From Enterococcus mundtii (GTDB taxonomy: Bacteria; Bacillota; Bacilli; Lactobacillales; Enterococcaceae): 64,000 nucleotides of DNA. The notes below the pieces were generated by a model. It was not told the DNA's origin. It worked only from the letters and a program-made list of their open reading frames with translations, and did not search any database. A program made the position numbers and the translations under genes. Below, piece after piece: positions 19,549 to 41,432 of the stretch. The DNA lies in NCBI RefSeq assembly GCF_013394305.1, contig NZ_AP019810.1:62001-126000 (forward strand), given 5' to 3'. Position 1 is the first letter of the stretch, and each line of letters begins with the position of its first letter.

Positions 19549-21582
19549 TTATTGGTAAGTTTGGTTCAAATACTGCAATAAAGCAGGCGCTCGATTAGTA
19601 GCAGAATCGCCTTCTTCTCTGTTTTCTAACATGCTGATCACCAAGTAGCCATTTGTTTCAGGATTGATCGCATAAAGGAAACTGTTTTCTTGTCCTTTTT
19701 CATCCTGCTTTTCTTTGATTTCAGCTGTGCCAGTTTTTGCTGCAAGCGGAATGCCAAGAGCAGCTAAAGAATGTGCAGTTCCGTTAGGATCTTGCACAAC
19801 GTCGACTAAATCTGGCAAAATCGTTTGGACACTTGATTCACTGATCACATTTTTCTTATCTTTAGTTTCCTGATCCATAACTAATCGTGGATAAACTAAA
19901 CTGCCATTATTTGCAAAAACACTATACATCGCAGCTTGTTGGATCGGATTGATCAATAATTGTCCTTGCCCATAGCCTGTATCTGCCAACAAAATCTCCG
20001 AATTGAATGAGTCTTCATTTGAGATCTGCGCAGGATTCATTTGGATCGGTAAATCAAGATCTTCACCAAAAATAAATTGATTCAGTCCTTTTCTAAAGGC
20101 TTCTTCCCCCATTTTCAATGTTTCTTGTGCCATATAGATATTATCAGAATAAACTAAAGCATTTTTCAAGTTGACTTGTGGTACATCACTGACACGTGTC
20201 ACTTGGTAAGAACCCCAAGAGCTATCTTTTTGCCACTTCAATCCATTGATCGTTAAGACTTCATCTGGATTCAATGTTCCATTATCTAAGCCGATGGCTG
20301 CGGTGATCATTTTGAATGTTGAACCCGGCGCATAACCTGTCGCAAAACGACTGATAAATGGACGATTTGGGTCTTCTTCATATACTTTGTAATCATCTTG
20401 GGAAATACCGTTCGTCATTTTATTTGGGTCATAACTAGGTGAACTGACAAGGGCCAACAAATCTCCAGTTTTAGGGGCTGTCGCCACAGTAGAACCTGGT
20501 TTTCCATCTAAGCTATCGAATGCCGTTTTTTGCGCATTAGCATCGATCGTCAACTGGATATCCTGTCCATTTTTTACTTCATGTTGGAGTAAGACCGCTT
20601 TTTCATTTCCTTCTTCATCTGTGACACTTAATTTCCCGCCGTTCGTACCTCTTAATTCTTTGTCGTAAGCCATTTCTAAGCCTGAACGCCCGATTTTTCC
20701 TGTGCTACTCAACTCAGGATTTTTCTCAATGTCTTCTGCGGTGATATCTCCTACATAGCCAATCAATTGGGCAGCGGCTTCCCCTAGTGGATAATAACGA
20801 CCGTCAACTTCTTGGATCGTTGCTCCATTGGGAAGTTCTGGTGTTTCCCCATCAATGATTTTTAAAGGAACAAAGTAATCCGGTTGGACCCAATCTTGAG
20901 AAATCGCTTGTTCTATACTGGCTTCCGTCAAATCGAATGCTTCAGCGATTGCTTTGATATTCGCTGATTTTTCCTCACCCTCACCTAATTTCGCAGGTAC
21001 GACACCTAATTGTTTTAATTTCCCAGTTGTCGCTAACGGCTGTTTATTACGGTCCAAGATTTCGCCACGCGACGCTATATCTGTACTCAAGCTGACTTTA
21101 TCTTGTCCTTCCATTTGCGGAAAAATCAAATTAGGTTGCCAATTGATTTTGGTTTGGTCTCCCTCTTTGGACAAGGTTCCTTCATATGCTAAGTCTTTCA
21201 ATTCACCTAGCGTCGTATTCATTTTAGCTTTATACGTAAACTCATACGTATCATTCTCTTTTTTTGTCACGGATAAGTCTGAGAGTTTGATCCCTCTGAT
21301 CTCTGCTGCACCGTAAATGTTTTGATATTTTTCCAAAATATCTTGTTCAGTAAGATCACTATCTTTCTCTACTTGAAGTGATTTTACCGCTTCTTCATAA
21401 TTTTCCTGATTCAGGGAGTCAATAAATCCTTCAATCGTTTGTTCTCCAGCTTTTACTGCTTGTTGTTCCTGAACGTGTTGATAATAAAAGAAGCCACCAC
21501 CAGCTGCTGCAAGCAAGACGACGATTCCCGCTCCGATATAGATGCCGGTCGATTTTTTCTTTTGTCTGCCACTCCTCTTCAT
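19549..21582 (-). CDS. pbp5: Low-affinity class B penicillin-binding protein PBP5
   Basis: DD-transpeptidase that cross-links peptidoglycan and gives enterococci intrinsic beta-lactam tolerance. The 677 residues (678 in E. faecium) comprise a membrane anchor at about 13-33, an MecA_N/NTF2-like domain, a dimerisation domain (ASRGEILDRNKQPLA, GRSGLEMAYDKELRG) and the transpeptidase with STFK, SDN (YSDNIYMAQETLKMG) and KTGT (AAKTGTAEIKEK). Met follows SDNIY, as in ampicillin-susceptible E. faecium PBP5, and I see no insertion after VSDV. psr lies directly upstream. Confidence 0.94.
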   Translation of the reverse strand: MKRSGRQKKKSTGIYIGAGIVVLLAAAGGGFFYYQHVQEQQAVKAGEQTIEGFIDSLNQENYEEAVKSLQVEKDSDLTEQDILEKYQNIYGAAEIRGIKLSDLSVTKKENDTYEFTYKAKMNTTLGELKDLAYEGTLSKEGDQTKINWQPNLIFPQMEGQDKVSLSTDIASRGEILDRNKQPLATTGKLKQLGVVPAKLGEGEEKSANIKAIAEAFDLTEASIEQAISQDWVQPDYFVPLKIIDGETPELPNGATIQEVDGRYYPLGEAAAQLIGYVGDITAEDIEKNPELSSTGKIGRSGLEMAYDKELRGTNGGKLSVTDEEGNEKAVLLQHEVKNGQDIQLTIDANAQKTAFDSLDGKPGSTVATAPKTGDLLALVSSPSYDPNKMTNGISQDDYKVYEEDPNRPFISRFATGYAPGSTFKMITAAIGLDNGTLNPDEVLTINGLKWQKDSSWGSYQVTRVSDVPQVNLKNALVYSDNIYMAQETLKMGEEAFRKGLNQFIFGEDLDLPIQMNPAQISNEDSFNSEILLADTGYGQGQLLINPIQQAAMYSVFANNGSLVYPRLVMDQETKDKKNVISESSVQTILPDLVDVVQDPNGTAHSLAALGIPLAAKTGTAEIKEKQDEKGQENSFLYAINPETNGYLVISMLENREEGDSATNRAPALLQYLNQTYQ

Positions 21583-21757: not shown

Positions 21758-22639
21758 TTATTTGTCCAAAAACTCGTGTATCGCTTGCTGATTTTTAGTC
21801 AAGCCGATTTCCAAGACACTACCAGCTGGTGTATTATCATTGAAGTCCCAACTTTTATCAACGGGCACGGACAATGTATCGATTTTCTTCTCGTCATCTA
21901 GGAAATCTAACCCACAATCTAACAGTACACTTTCCGGTAGATTGGTTTGGATACTACCTAAAAGTTTGCCGATCGCCTTGGGTAATTTGATGATCGATGT
22001 GACATCTTTCAATTGACTGGCTACCGCCTCAACGACTTGTTGTTGTCTACGGATCCGTCCAAAATCACCTTCTTCGTCTTCACGAAAACGAGCATATTGC
22101 AGCAAGGTATTTCCGTCCATTGTTTGCTTTCCTTTTTTGATAGCTACCCCATCTAAATCCAAATCTTTTTCTGCATCGATCGTGACGCCATCTGGAAACA
22201 ATTCATCGATACAATCAATAAAATCTTGAAACGTAATACTTGCATAGTAAGGGGTCTCTAATTTGAAATTATCTTGTAAGGTTTGGTTTAATAAGTCGAT
22301 ACCTCCATATGAATAGGCGGCATTGATCTTATTCATTCCATAACCAGGAATAGAGACGTAAGAATCTCTCATGATAGAAATCAATTTGGCTTGTTTGGTC
22401 TTTTGATCATATTGGGCGACCATCAAAGAATCCGAACGACCATTTTCTTCTTTTGATCGTGCATCAGAACCAATCAATGCTACATTGATGATCGATGGGA
22501 CATCTTGTGCATTGACTTTCTCAACTGTTGCAGATTGTTTCACTGAGGAGAACCCTTGGATAAATTCAAAAGAAAAAAAGCCAATGACCATTGCAAGTAC
22601 TAACAAGATACTTAATATGATTTTCTGAAATGGTTTCAT
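21758..22639 (-). CDS. psr: Psr, LytR-CpsA-Psr family protein
   Basis: Membrane-anchored LCP enzyme. The family transfers wall polymers from lipid carriers to peptidoglycan and needs a divalent metal such as Mg2+. The 293 residues (the known Psr length) start with one transmembrane segment (IILSILLVLAMVIGFFSFEFI). The LCP core shows VALIGSDARSKEENGRSDSLMV, ISIMRDSYVSIPGYGMNKINAAYSYGG and QYARFREDEEGDFGRIRRQQQVVEA, with the Arg and Asp residues of the active site. Originally described as a repressor of pbp5, which follows it. An M-box leader lies about 300 bases upstream. Confidence 0.9.
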   Translation of the reverse strand: MKPFQKIILSILLVLAMVIGFFSFEFIQGFSSVKQSATVEKVNAQDVPSIINVALIGSDARSKEENGRSDSLMVAQYDQKTKQAKLISIMRDSYVSIPGYGMNKINAAYSYGGIDLLNQTLQDNFKLETPYYASITFQDFIDCIDELFPDGVTIDAEKDLDLDGVAIKKGKQTMDGNTLLQYARFREDEEGDFGRIRRQQQVVEAVASQLKDVTSIIKLPKAIGKLLGSIQTNLPESVLLDCGLDFLDDEKKIDTLSVPVDKSWDFNDNTPAGSVLEIGLTKNQQAIHEFLDK

Positions 22640-22723
22640 TCAGTTGCCTCTTCCTTTCAAACTCTTCTACTTGAAACGAGGACCTTTGTCTATTATGATG
22701 AATCAAGTAAAGAGTTTATTCTC

Positions 22724-22858
22724 TTACATGTCTTTGGGTCGATTGAGCTGCAACTCGTCGACCTTTTTTGTTTGTCTCTCTGTTTTATTTCGTTCGGTAT
22801 TCTTTGGAGTGAGACGAATACCTTTATTGATAAAATCAAATAGCTTGTTCCAGCGCAT
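22724..22858 (-). CDS. Possible 44-residue protein between the M-box and psr
   Basis: Starts MRWNKLFDFINKGIRLTPKN and continues with a charged Lys/Arg/Glu-rich tail ending NRPKDM. AAAGGGG abuts the ATG, too close for a normal ribosome binding site, so translation is doubtful. It is the only frame of note between the riboswitch terminator and psr and does not resemble an Mg2+ transporter. Confidence 0.3.
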   Translation of the reverse strand: MRWNKLFDFINKGIRLTPKNTERNKTERQTKKVDELQLNRPKDM

Positions 22859-22913
22859 CCCCTTTCTTGTCCAGACACAAGTTAGGCAAAGCGAGTAAAA
22901 AAGGAAAAGAAAG

Positions 22914-22956
22914 CATAAGAAAAGGTCAGAAACCTTTTCGAACAAGATTTCTGACC
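22914..22956 (-). terminator. Intrinsic terminator of the M-box expression platform
   Basis: On the minus strand GGTCAGAAA...TTTCTGACC followed by TTTTCTT, 27 bases after the M-box aptamer. This is the layout expected for a riboswitch that terminates at high Mg2+. Confidence 0.75.
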
Positions 22957-22982
22957 TAGCATCATCTCATCGTCCGAGTTTT

Positions 22983-23128
22983 AGCACTATACAACGTAAA
23001 GAACGTATTCTTAGCTATTGGAAAAAGCCTTAATCCGACAATTCCTGTTTGACCCATTGGCGTCTTTCGACGTTTCTGGGCAATAGCCTATGTTTGTATA
23101 GGAGCCTCACCTAACAAGGTTAGTACTT
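22983..23128 (-). ncRNA. M-box (ykoK) Mg2+ riboswitch aptamer
   Basis: The minus strand carries the conserved M-box blocks in order: GTTAGGTGAGGCTCCT, then TAGGCTATTGCCC, then GTCGAAAGACGCCAATGGGTC and AACAG. The closing stem is AGTACTA with TAGTGCT. A promoter lies just upstream and a terminator just downstream. M-boxes normally control Mg2+ transporters (mgtE, mgtA); none lies downstream here, where the first clear gene is psr. Confidence 0.92.
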
Positions 23129-23148
23129 ATTTGATTTTCACAAAATTT

Positions 23149-23177
23149 ATCATATTCCTCTTCCCATTGATAATCAA
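23149..23177 (-). promoter_or_regulatory. Promoter of the M-box transcript
   Basis: Minus-strand TTGATT, a 17-base spacer and TATGAT, placing the transcription start about 15 bases before the aptamer stem. Confidence 0.7.
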
Positions 23178-23288: not shown

Positions 23289-23903
23289 TTATTCCGGACG
23301 TAACAAGCGAATGATCTCACCTAATTTACCGTAGTCGTTTCCTGCTAAGCGGCTGATTGGTTGTAACTGTTTCGGATCGATATAGCCTGTTTGTTCATCA
23401 TAAACAGCTTCACTTATTTGATAAGTAGAAATTTGCAGTAAAAATAAATCAGCGGTTGTTTCTTGGCCTTTTTTGATCGGCACATGTTGGTATAGTGTCG
23501 TTTCAAAGGCAATACTTGCTTCATTGATTCTTGGGACGCTGATCGTATCGGATTCGGAAGTAGTGAAAGAGGTCAACGACAATTCACTTTCTTCGCTTGA
23601 TAAGCTAGCAGCTGTCTGATTCGCATCTACAAGTATTCTTTCGTCAAGAACATGGATCACCGCTTCTTTTGTATCGATAAGATGCTTTGCTGTATCTTTC
23701 CACTCCCCATTTTTTCTTTGGATAGCTAAAGAAAGTATCGGCGGATTGGAACTGACGATATTGAAGTAACTAAATGGTGCTACATTGGTCACTCCTTTTG
23801 AAGACCTTGTCGCAACCACTGCCACTGGGCGAGGGATAACTGAGCCAATCAACAGTTTATAATTTTCTCTTTCTGTTAACTCTGAAGGTACTCGTTTGAA
23901 CAT
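23289..23903 (-). CDS. Flavin reductase family protein
   Basis: A 204-residue flavin-reductase-like protein with the split-barrel FMN-binding motif (LIGSVIPRPVAVVATRSSKGVTNVAPFSYFNIVSSNPPILSLAIQ), followed by KDTAKHLIDTKEAVIHVLDE and a C-terminal GYIDPKQLQPISRLAGNDYGKLGE, which is typical of the group that supplies or uses FMN. The substrate is unknown. It is a single gene. Confidence 0.88.
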   Translation of the reverse strand: MFKRVPSELTERENYKLLIGSVIPRPVAVVATRSSKGVTNVAPFSYFNIVSSNPPILSLAIQRKNGEWKDTAKHLIDTKEAVIHVLDERILVDANQTAASLSSEESELSLTSFTTSESDTISVPRINEASIAFETTLYQHVPIKKGQETTADLFLLQISTYQISEAVYDEQTGYIDPKQLQPISRLAGNDYGKLGEIIRLLRPE

Positions 23904-24052: not shown

Positions 24053-25396
24053 TTATTTCAATCGGAATAATGTTGGTGCTTGGTCAGGTGCCCAAGTAAC
24101 ATCACCAAAGTTGAAATGTGGAACAATAGTTATGTAGACTCTTCCATTGTGTCTTACTTCTTCATTCATAGAATAACGTTCTGGTGAAGCCATTGAACCT
24201 ACTTTCCATTCACGGATTCCTTCGATTGTTTCATCTTGTTTCGTTGTCACTGATAAAGTGTTACTTGCATCTGAAACTTCGTCTGTTGTACTGATTGCAC
24301 GTACCACGTATGAGTATGTTGTGCCAGAAGCCAAGTTTTCATCTGTGTAGCTAGTAGATGGCGTTGAAGCCACTAACTGACCATTGCGATAGATATCATA
24401 TTGTTTGATACCTTGTGTATGGGTTGAAGCTCCCCACATCAATGACACGCTTGAAGTCGTTTCGCCCATTGAATGTAAGTTTTTAGGAGCAGTTGGTTTT
24501 TCTTCAGCAGTTGTCGCTCTAGTTGTCACTGAAATCGCTGTTTTGTCAGATGTCAATCCAGTTTGGCTAACTGCTTCGATCTCATAGTTGTATGTTGTTT
24601 CTTCATTTAGTCCTGCATCTTTAAATTCTGGATCATTTGTATTACCAACTAATTCACCGTCACGGTAAACGTTGTATGATACAGTATTGGCTTGGCCATT
24701 CCATGCTAATTCTACAGAAGAAGCAGTCACATTTGCAGCACGTACATTTTGTGGTGCTTGTGGTTTCACAGGAATAGCTGAATCACCTTTCACATCAACA
24801 TCAATCACGTTGTAGAATGCATTAGCTGTATCCGCTACATCCCAAACAGCTAAAATCACATGGTAACCTAAACGATCACTTGGTACGTTGATTGCGTGTG
24901 ATGTCGTTGTTGCTGGTGTGCCATTATGGTTGATCGTACCAATCAATTCAAAATCAGAACGTTCTAATTTATCGTTTGGATTCCAATCTGCTTTTGTCAT
25001 GTAATAATGTCATTTTGTTGTTGCATGTCCAACAGTATAGCGCCATGTAAATAAGTTTGCTCCTTGATCGATCGATTGTTTTGTCCAAAGTGATGAAGTT
25101 TGTTGATCAAGATTGAAATCACCAAGTGAACCACCTGCTGATGCAATTTGTCCATCAACTGGTCCAGCTTGTGGGTATCCTTTTAAGGCTTCTAAAGATT
25201 GAGGTTCGTTGATAACCGCTCCATATTTTTGGAAAGCAACATTCCAGTTTGTGTCTCTGTCTAAATGTCCTTGGTACCCACGACTGATAGGAGACTGTAC
25301 ATATCCGTGTGCAGATGCTTCATTCCCACCAATTGCTAGACTTGCTCCAAATAAAATACTTGAGCATAAAATGGTTCCTAAAATTTATTTTTTCAT
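24053..25396 (-). pseudogene. Chitin-active AA10 lytic polysaccharide monooxygenase, two nonsense codons
   Basis: Secreted copper LPMO: signal peptide (ILGTILCSSILFGASLAIGGNEASA), then HGYVQSPISRGYQ with the N-terminal copper histidine, the second histidine in YTVGHATT, and AA10 end ILAVWDVADTANAFYNVIDVD. Two fibronectin-III domains and a C-terminal CBM5/12-type chitin-binding module (REWKVGSM...YSMNEEVRHNGRVYIT) follow. The frame of 448 codons, with a GGAGGG ribosome binding site, holds TAA at codon 4 (25385-25387, expected Lys) and TGA at 25010-25012 (expected Trp before HYYMTKADWNPN). Everything else is well preserved, suggesting recent inactivation or sequence errors. Confidence 0.9.
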
Positions 25397-41147: not shown

Positions 41148-41432
41148 ATTGCGAATCATATGTTATACGACATCTTAATTTGTTTTTATGAAATTTAATC
41201 CCACTGGCGTAACTAAAGGGTTACAAGGATGTATTAGTGGTTAGGGAATACATTGTTTAAATGAGAAAGAGTTAATATAGAGTAATCGCCTCTTTAGAGG
41301 TTTTAAGTAACACCAATGCTTCGTTAGATTGCCTTTTCTTCGGAAAAGGCAATCGTTCAACCATCTTTTTATCGAAAAACGATATATTATAGTTGAATAT
41401 CAATATATACATTCTATTAGGAGGTTAAATAA
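41148..41432 (+). other. Long structured leader of the DUF2975 gene
   Basis: Between the promoter and the AGGAGG site of the gene lie a GTAAC/GTTAC hairpin near 41215, a 12-base stem capped by a UUCG tetraloop (GATTGCCTTTTC-TTCG-GAAAAGGCAATC, 41327-41354) and an ATCG-AAAAA-CGAT hairpin. I recognise no riboswitch class. It may be a regulatory leader or a separate small RNA. Confidence 0.45.

Follow-up and report, generated by a model that had tools for sequence, protein, structure and literature searches.

An M-box riboswitch upstream of psr and pbp5 in Enterococcus mundtii and the cell-wall genes behind M-boxes of the Enterococcaceae

The window analyzed here is a stretch of 64,000 nucleotides (nt) of the Enterococcus mundtii genome (assembly GCF_013394305.1, contig NZ_AP019810.1, positions 62,001 to 126,000). 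On its minus strand, an M-box Mg2+ riboswitch stands upstream of the genes psr and pbp5. M-boxes are usually taken as markers of Mg2+ transporters, and the question is why cell-wall genes follow this one. The answer preferred here, at a probability of about 0.77, is that the M-box is a working transcription attenuator with cell-wall genes as its native targets, and part of a wall-synthesis set that would be raised in Mg2+ shortage.

The M-box at psr-pbp5 and the ftsW scar

The initial annotation had described a textbook M-box with its own promoter and terminator on the minus strand, and for the M-box the Rfam scan bore this out. The aptamer was matched to RF00380 by cmscan at 22959-23125 (minus strand; positions 1-169; 149.7 bits, gathering score 44; E 4.4e-34). 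It is followed by an intrinsic terminator, the expression platform, at 22915-22957 (minus strand), whose hairpin (22957-22923) has 14 pairs, then TTTCTTAT, and a folding energy of -19.8 kcal in isolation. The promoter TTGATT-17-TATGAT lies at 23149-23177 (minus strand). As a whole, the consensus scans were near chance (promoters: 21 against 16.1 expected, standard deviation 4.0; terminators: 7 against 4.5, standard deviation 2.1), and the two calls at the M-box were accepted because they are conserved among relatives, not because the scans beat chance. A TTGNNN-N17-TANNAT box was present upstream of the aptamer in 11/11 leaders of pbp5 loci (a count without a chance control) and occupied identical alignment columns in 10/10 leaders. 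Over seven species, mean pairwise identity was 94.8% in the aptamer and 93.4% in the terminator, against 51% in the upstream and 45% in the downstream flank. The E. mundtii genome has five M-boxes: four precede mgtA, mgtE, SEDS genes in tandem and psr-pbp5, and the fifth, whose core has drifted, precedes a LysR gene.

The first intact gene past the riboswitch is psr of the LCP family (21758-22639, minus strand; PF03816, 147.5 bits, cut-off 24.6), followed by pbp5 (19549-21582, minus strand), which encodes a low-affinity class B penicillin-binding protein (PBP) with a MecA_N domain (PF00905, PF03717 and PF05223; NCBIfam PBP4_5_Efaec, PBP4(5), 1093.6 bits, cut-off 700). The gene order given earlier, psr then pbp5 with no transporter between, was thus confirmed. 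The 44-residue frame in the gap, which had been called doubtful, does exist (22724-22858, minus strand; ATG at 22858, stop ending at 22724), but it is not a gene. By blastn of the gap against ftsW-bearing loci, it is a scar of a deleted ftsW, in which the ftsW leader is joined to about the last 45 codons. The gap matched the ftsW-psr stretch of E. durans at 71% over 163 nt (E 2e-16), and the other five ftsW-bearing loci in shorter pieces. Remains of the ribosome-binding site and 5' untranslated region of ftsW lie at 22852-22914 (minus strand), where CCTAACTTGTGTC is shared with the ftsW leaders of E. durans and E. villorum. Since the leader and the last codons of ftsW are joined within the gap, the deleted gene was ftsW. 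The loss of a Mg2+ transporter gene, which the initial annotation had offered as the alternative, was right about the deletion and wrong about the gene; the gap aligns to the ends of ftsW, and a transporter deletion was rejected. A Mg2+-related small protein encoded by the 44-codon frame was also rejected, as the frame consists of ftsW leader and 3' codons and is shifted in one relative (G008; by eye).

When the regions upstream of psr were compared across 16 genomes of the genus, as had been proposed, a gene was indeed found between M-box and psr in six relatives, and it was ftsW and no transporter. The order M-box-ftsW-psr-pbp5 was observed in these 6/16 genomes: E. durans (G002), Enterococcus sp. 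ZJ1622 (G010), E. lactis (G006), E. villorum (G014), G005, which we take to be E. hirae, and G004, which is E. faecium or its like (nearly identical proteins). An E. faecium plasmid record (L034, NZ_CP065930.1) also has M-box and ftsW-psr-pbp5, in a stretch that resembles the chromosomal locus. The order M-box-scar-psr-pbp5 was observed in 4/16 genomes (G000, G007, G008 and G012, the E. mundtii group), all without ftsW at this place, and the loss is not confined to a single strain. PBP5 of the window is 98% identical to those of both G012 (E. mundtii Pe161) and G008 (E. mundtii CVM N55263). The four scar loci would be most simply explained by one ftsW deletion in the ancestor of the E. mundtii group.

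Targets of M-boxes across the family

The survey covered 111 M-boxes in 43 genomes of 17 genera: 44 from the 16 genus genomes and 67 from 27 further Enterococcaceae genomes, which were hand-picked from 90 to cover 16 other genera. Downstream targets were labelled by hand. Mg2+ transport genes (MgtA, MgtE or MgtC) follow 60/111 M-boxes, and such loci are present in 43/43 genomes; in 7 of the 53 cases labelled MgtA, the MgtA start is more than 800 nt from the M-box and the label was given without regard to intervening genes. Wall genes follow 41/111 M-boxes, in 27/43 genomes and 6/17 genera, and the remaining 10 M-boxes precede other genes. The wall loci are related by descent and are not 41 independent events. 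They comprise ftsW-psr-pbp5 (6 M-boxes), psr-pbp5 with the scar (4), FtsW2-RodA2 followed by a PAP2 match (14), FtsW2-RodA2-Psr (2), RodA2-PAP2 (2), LCP or its remnant followed by FtsW2-RodA2 (3), LCP alone (5), a PAP2-LCP fusion (3), PAP2 alone (1) and an LCP remnant (1). Outside the family, among 40 M-boxes hand-picked (not random) from an order-level search, 31 precede MgtA or MgtE and two precede wall genes (L258 and L274); the other seven matched no reference, and one of these is MgtC-like by eye.

In the E. mundtii genome itself, wall genes stand behind 2/5 M-boxes. The second of these M-boxes heads two SEDS genes (of the FtsW and RodA types) and a gene for a PAP2-LCP fusion protein. The genome has four SEDS, four LCP and two PAP2 entries, which make nine genes as one protein counts twice, and four of the nine lie within M-box operons. 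Psr had been seen as the point of regulation. That wall genes are the targets is upheld by the comparison; Psr is one reading, and the wider range of targets (FtsW2, RodA2, PAP2, LCP and PBP5) suggests that a whole auxiliary wall-synthesis set would be regulated.

PAP2-LCP fusion proteins of about 526-541 amino acids were found behind the M-boxes L153, L154 and L178 and in the E. mundtii genome (C1:2735851-2736900). Decayed LCP genes stand behind L177 and L184, with SEDS genes following in L184.

PF01098 (cut-off 26.4) was matched by both members of the SEDS pair behind the E. mundtii M-box, with 261.4 and 218 bits. A tree of 61 rows showed that an M-box pair combines a protein of the FtsW type (FtsW2) with one of the RodA type (RodA2). 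Each type has its own clade, separate from the rows of housekeeping FtsW and RodA; these M-box clades had supports of 88/91 and 91/100, and the program starred neither of them. Four rows from M-box loci (L239-L242) were labelled 'other', and the clade statements were corrected for these by eye. The SEDS rows from other families were split, L258 lying inside and L274 outside the M-box clades. FtsW of the pbp5 locus falls within the FtsW-type M-box clade and adjoins FtsW2 of an M-box-FtsW2-RodA2-Psr operon of another genus. Exactly one FtsW2 (at least 48% identity to the query) is present in 15/16 genus genomes and none in G009. It lies in the pbp5 operon in six and elsewhere in nine, eight of the nine being behind an M-box; for the ninth, G003, the M-box search of the genus genomes found no M-box before FtsW2. 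The E. mundtii group has lost the copy of the pbp5 locus and has the other one. As retention is either-or, the two FtsW2 copies probably do the same job.

Core residues were compared with 14 housekeeping FtsW and RodA rows from seven genomes, in the numbering of the E. mundtii FtsW. The residues W107, E119, D279 and E287 (14/14 housekeeping rows), among which we presume a catalytic role, are kept in 26/26 FtsW-type and 19/19 RodA-type M-box rows. The pair K122 and D167, also present in 14/14 housekeeping rows and together in 19/19 RodA-type M-box rows, is lost in FtsW2: neither residue is kept in any of the 26 FtsW-type rows, D167 being replaced by Lys (22) or Asn (4) and K122 mostly by Asn (20). 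These rows are related, and the loss amounts to few events. In alignments to solved FtsW and RodA chains (25hr, 8bh1 and 6bar), the Lys stands at the aspartate of PD[FL]G. The D159-L160 fragment of E. coli RodA is described in the relevant section of PMC10449877 (PubMed Central, PMC) as part of the modelled active site, and from the motif we take it as the position of D167. Given the lost pair, which is an observation of this analysis and not a published criterion, we do not class FtsW2 as an ordinary FtsW. The NCBIfam equivalog cut-offs were rejected as a separator: for TIGR02614 (cut-off 337.5), M-box FtsW2 scored 264.3, the E. faecium-like FtsW of the pbp5 locus 281.7, and the housekeeping FtsW of E. 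mundtii, also below the cut-off, 298.5.

A terminator below -12 kcal follows 95/102 family M-boxes, compared with 23/306 control windows and 9/102 shuffles; the nine of 111 M-boxes without a plain core were excluded. For antitermination, 99 loci with a terminator were considered, of which 39 off the aptamer-end pattern were excluded and the other 60 gave 50 distinct loci. In these, the 3' tract of the aptamer pairs with the 5' side of the terminator with a mean duplex energy of -10.2 kcal, against -7.3 kcal in shuffles, and at 19/50 loci no more than 5/100 shuffles were as good. The 5' strand of P1 was also tried as an antiterminator (AACCTT/AAGGTT). It suits the pbp5 loci, but was rejected, as over 83 distinct loci the own pairs scored 4.19 and permuted ones 4.24.

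Upstream of the switch, the window has a flavin reductase-like gene (23289-23903, minus strand; PF01613) at the place that rutF occupies in the E. faecium locus, a conserved neighbour outside the switch that is present at 9/10 genus pbp5 loci with an M-box, the exception being E. villorum. At 24053-25000 (minus strand), an LPMO_10-fn3-CBM5/12 gene is without the N-terminal part of its LPMO domain (profile 111-183 of 183); its relatives have 447 (G008), 451 (G007) and 343 (Pe161) amino acids. A BsrC match of Rfam was found at 41179-41266 (minus strand; 60.5 bits, cut-off 38).

Mechanism, purpose and rival explanations

In the proposed mechanism, enough Mg2+ would let the aptamer fold and the terminator form, so that transcription stops, and with too little Mg2+ the RNA polymerase would read on into the wall genes. 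High Mg2+ favours the terminator in characterised M-boxes, according to a passage of PMC4072509. After the ftsW deletion, the switch of the E. mundtii group would head psr and, through psr, pbp5; in E. hirae and E. faecium, according to part of PMC5059904, ftsW-lcpA-pbp5 is transcribed as a single polycistronic mRNA. The psr-pbp5 M-box and the M-box of FtsW2, RodA2 and PAP2-LCP together would control an auxiliary wall-synthesis set induced by Mg2+ shortage.

As for the purpose, we tentatively consider that the M-boxes of the Enterococcaceae switch on a complete Mg2+-sparing wall set. Class A PBPs (metal-dependent GT51 enzymes) and BacA would be backed up by SEDS polymerases, PBP5 and a PAP2-type phosphatase for undecaprenyl pyrophosphate (C55-PP), LCP enzymes would work alongside, the core of FtsW2 would have been remodelled, and the ampicillin-resistance operon of E. 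faecium would be a Mg2+-starvation operon in origin. PAP2 enzymes are not known to need a metal. The E. mundtii genome has both BacA and the M-box PAP2-LCP gene, and in L153 and L154, relatives of the latter, what we take to be the PAP2 motifs are kept (by eye). In the sections concerned, the activity of E. coli RodA-PBP2 is reported to be unchanged by ethylenediaminetetraacetic acid (EDTA), unlike that of GT51 enzymes (PMC10449877), and BacA to need divalent cations, while C55-PP is also a substrate of PgpB and other enzymes of the PAP2 family (PMC5852022). Because RodA-PBP2 is insensitive to EDTA, BacA is divalent-dependent and PAP2 enzymes act on C55-PP, the switched genes would supply metal-free steps. 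LCP enzymes fit this scheme not so well, being thought to use a divalent metal.

That metal use speaks instead for a different purpose: low Mg2+ may raise LCP and SEDS proteins in order to thicken the wall, add Mg2+-holding anionic polymer or restore wall growth generally, and not to spare Mg2+. Among the wall targets, LCP genes also come up repeatedly, whether alone, fused or in operons. Such a purpose, which we likewise consider tentatively, leaves it unexplained why the partners should be a PAP2 phosphatase, a second FtsW and a second RodA.

It is unlikely that the M-box of the E. mundtii group is a relic that has controlled nothing important since ftsW was lost, with psr and pbp5 on their own promoters. 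The state of the locus gives this some footing: ftsW is gone, psr begins about 280 nt past the terminator, a weak promoter match (TTAACA-17-AAGAAT, 21694-21666) precedes pbp5, and separate psr and pbp5 promoters are spoken of for E. faecium in part of PMC11077988. The last three points also weigh against a working attenuator. Because of those promoters and the weak match, the grip of the M-box on pbp5 may be partial. Two further points count against the attenuator, namely that pbp5 has no nearby M-box in 6/16 genus genomes, and that the antiterminator pairing at psr-pbp5 (-9.9 kcal) does not stand out from shuffles (-9.0 kcal, 29/100 as good). The relic reading is weakened because the aptamer barely changed after the ftsW loss while upstream bases diverged. 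Between G000 and G007, 0/167 aptamer, 14/149 upstream, 19/251 leader-and-scar and 8/300 psr bases differ; between G000 and G008, the counts are 2/167, 38/149, 23/251 and 22/300. The terminator was kept past the deletion as well, and the consensus scan gave no minus-strand promoter match between it and psr. To judge from these alignments, the M-box at psr-pbp5 is under selection.

A palindrome, GAAAAGGT-N5-ACCTTTTC, with a predicted promoter TCGAAA-19-TATATT around it, has been described upstream of E. faecium ftsW (PMC13148053, 2026). The part of that paper concerned suggests a transcription-factor operator by a promoter, and transcription would then start downstream of the M-box. In croS mutants, the mRNA of ftsW, psr and pbp5 is raised, as the same part reports. 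In E. faecium, however, both palindrome and predicted promoter overlap the M-box terminator. The palindrome makes up the hairpin loop, 3' arm and T-run in 11/11 leaders (one G/A variant allowed), the predicted promoter is found in only 2/11 (L034 and G004, both E. faecium or its like), and all 11 have the promoter box upstream of the aptamer. We regard the operator as very improbable; a riboswitch terminator would explain the published palindrome. In nusG and rpoB mutants, PBP5 protein is increased without more operon mRNA, in the passages concerned of PMC13148053, and this is no support for an attenuation effect.

Hardly any weight is given to a drift of the aptamer at wall loci to another ligand: a drifted core, ATATTAGGTGAGGTTACTCTGA, does occur in five M-boxes (L082 and L083, before a LysR gene, and L194-L196, before genes for an ABC permease and an ATPase), which may represent a variant that binds a different ligand, but the psr-pbp5 M-box keeps the plain core, and its 149.7 bits lie between the mgtA (160.3) and mgtE (143.9) M-boxes of the same genome.

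Relation to known riboswitches and implications

Read as an attenuator of wall genes, the psr-pbp5 M-box resembles that of Bacillus subtilis mgtE in its aptamer, terminator-type expression platform and upstream promoter. The targets differ. According to the relevant part of PMC4072509, M-boxes nearly always precede corA, mgtA or mgtE, with Nramp-related transporters as a further target, whereas in the Enterococcaceae SEDS, LCP, PAP2 and PBP5 genes are found behind them as well. The ftsW-psr-pbp5 locus of E. faecium and E. hirae, the PBP5 beta-lactam resistance locus, is alike in gene order and homology, and differs in that ftsW is deleted in the E. mundtii group. Cobalamin riboswitches control B12-independent replacement isozymes. 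Isozymes of B12-dependent enzymes are listed as a class of RNA-regulated genes in a section of PMC3766115. The proposed likeness is the logic of a cofactor-free substitute; in the present case, Mg2+ would be what runs short, and wall enzymes would serve as the substitutes.

No paper linking an M-box to ftsW, psr or pbp5 was found in the open-licence PMC literature. The M-box is not mentioned in the relevant parts of PMC11077988, PMC13148053 and PMC5059904; the main texts of PMC11077988 and PMC13148053 contain neither the word riboswitch nor the word magnesium, and the latter is also absent from that of PMC5059904. Thirteen riboswitches in 5' regions of E. faecium are reported in part of PMC7724050, with reference to a supplementary table, and its main text has no occurrence of magnesium, ftsW or pbp5. 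The M-box before ftsW may already be in that table, its meaning undiscussed.

Family-wide use at wall genes would be a new role for the M-box class. If true, it would link Mg2+ supply with the synthesis of peptidoglycan and also, for E. faecium, with the PBP5 operon, whose differences in expression are called poorly understood in part of PMC11077988. The prediction is that the mRNA of the enterococcal pbp5 operon, and perhaps beta-lactam susceptibility, would depend on the Mg2+ of the medium.
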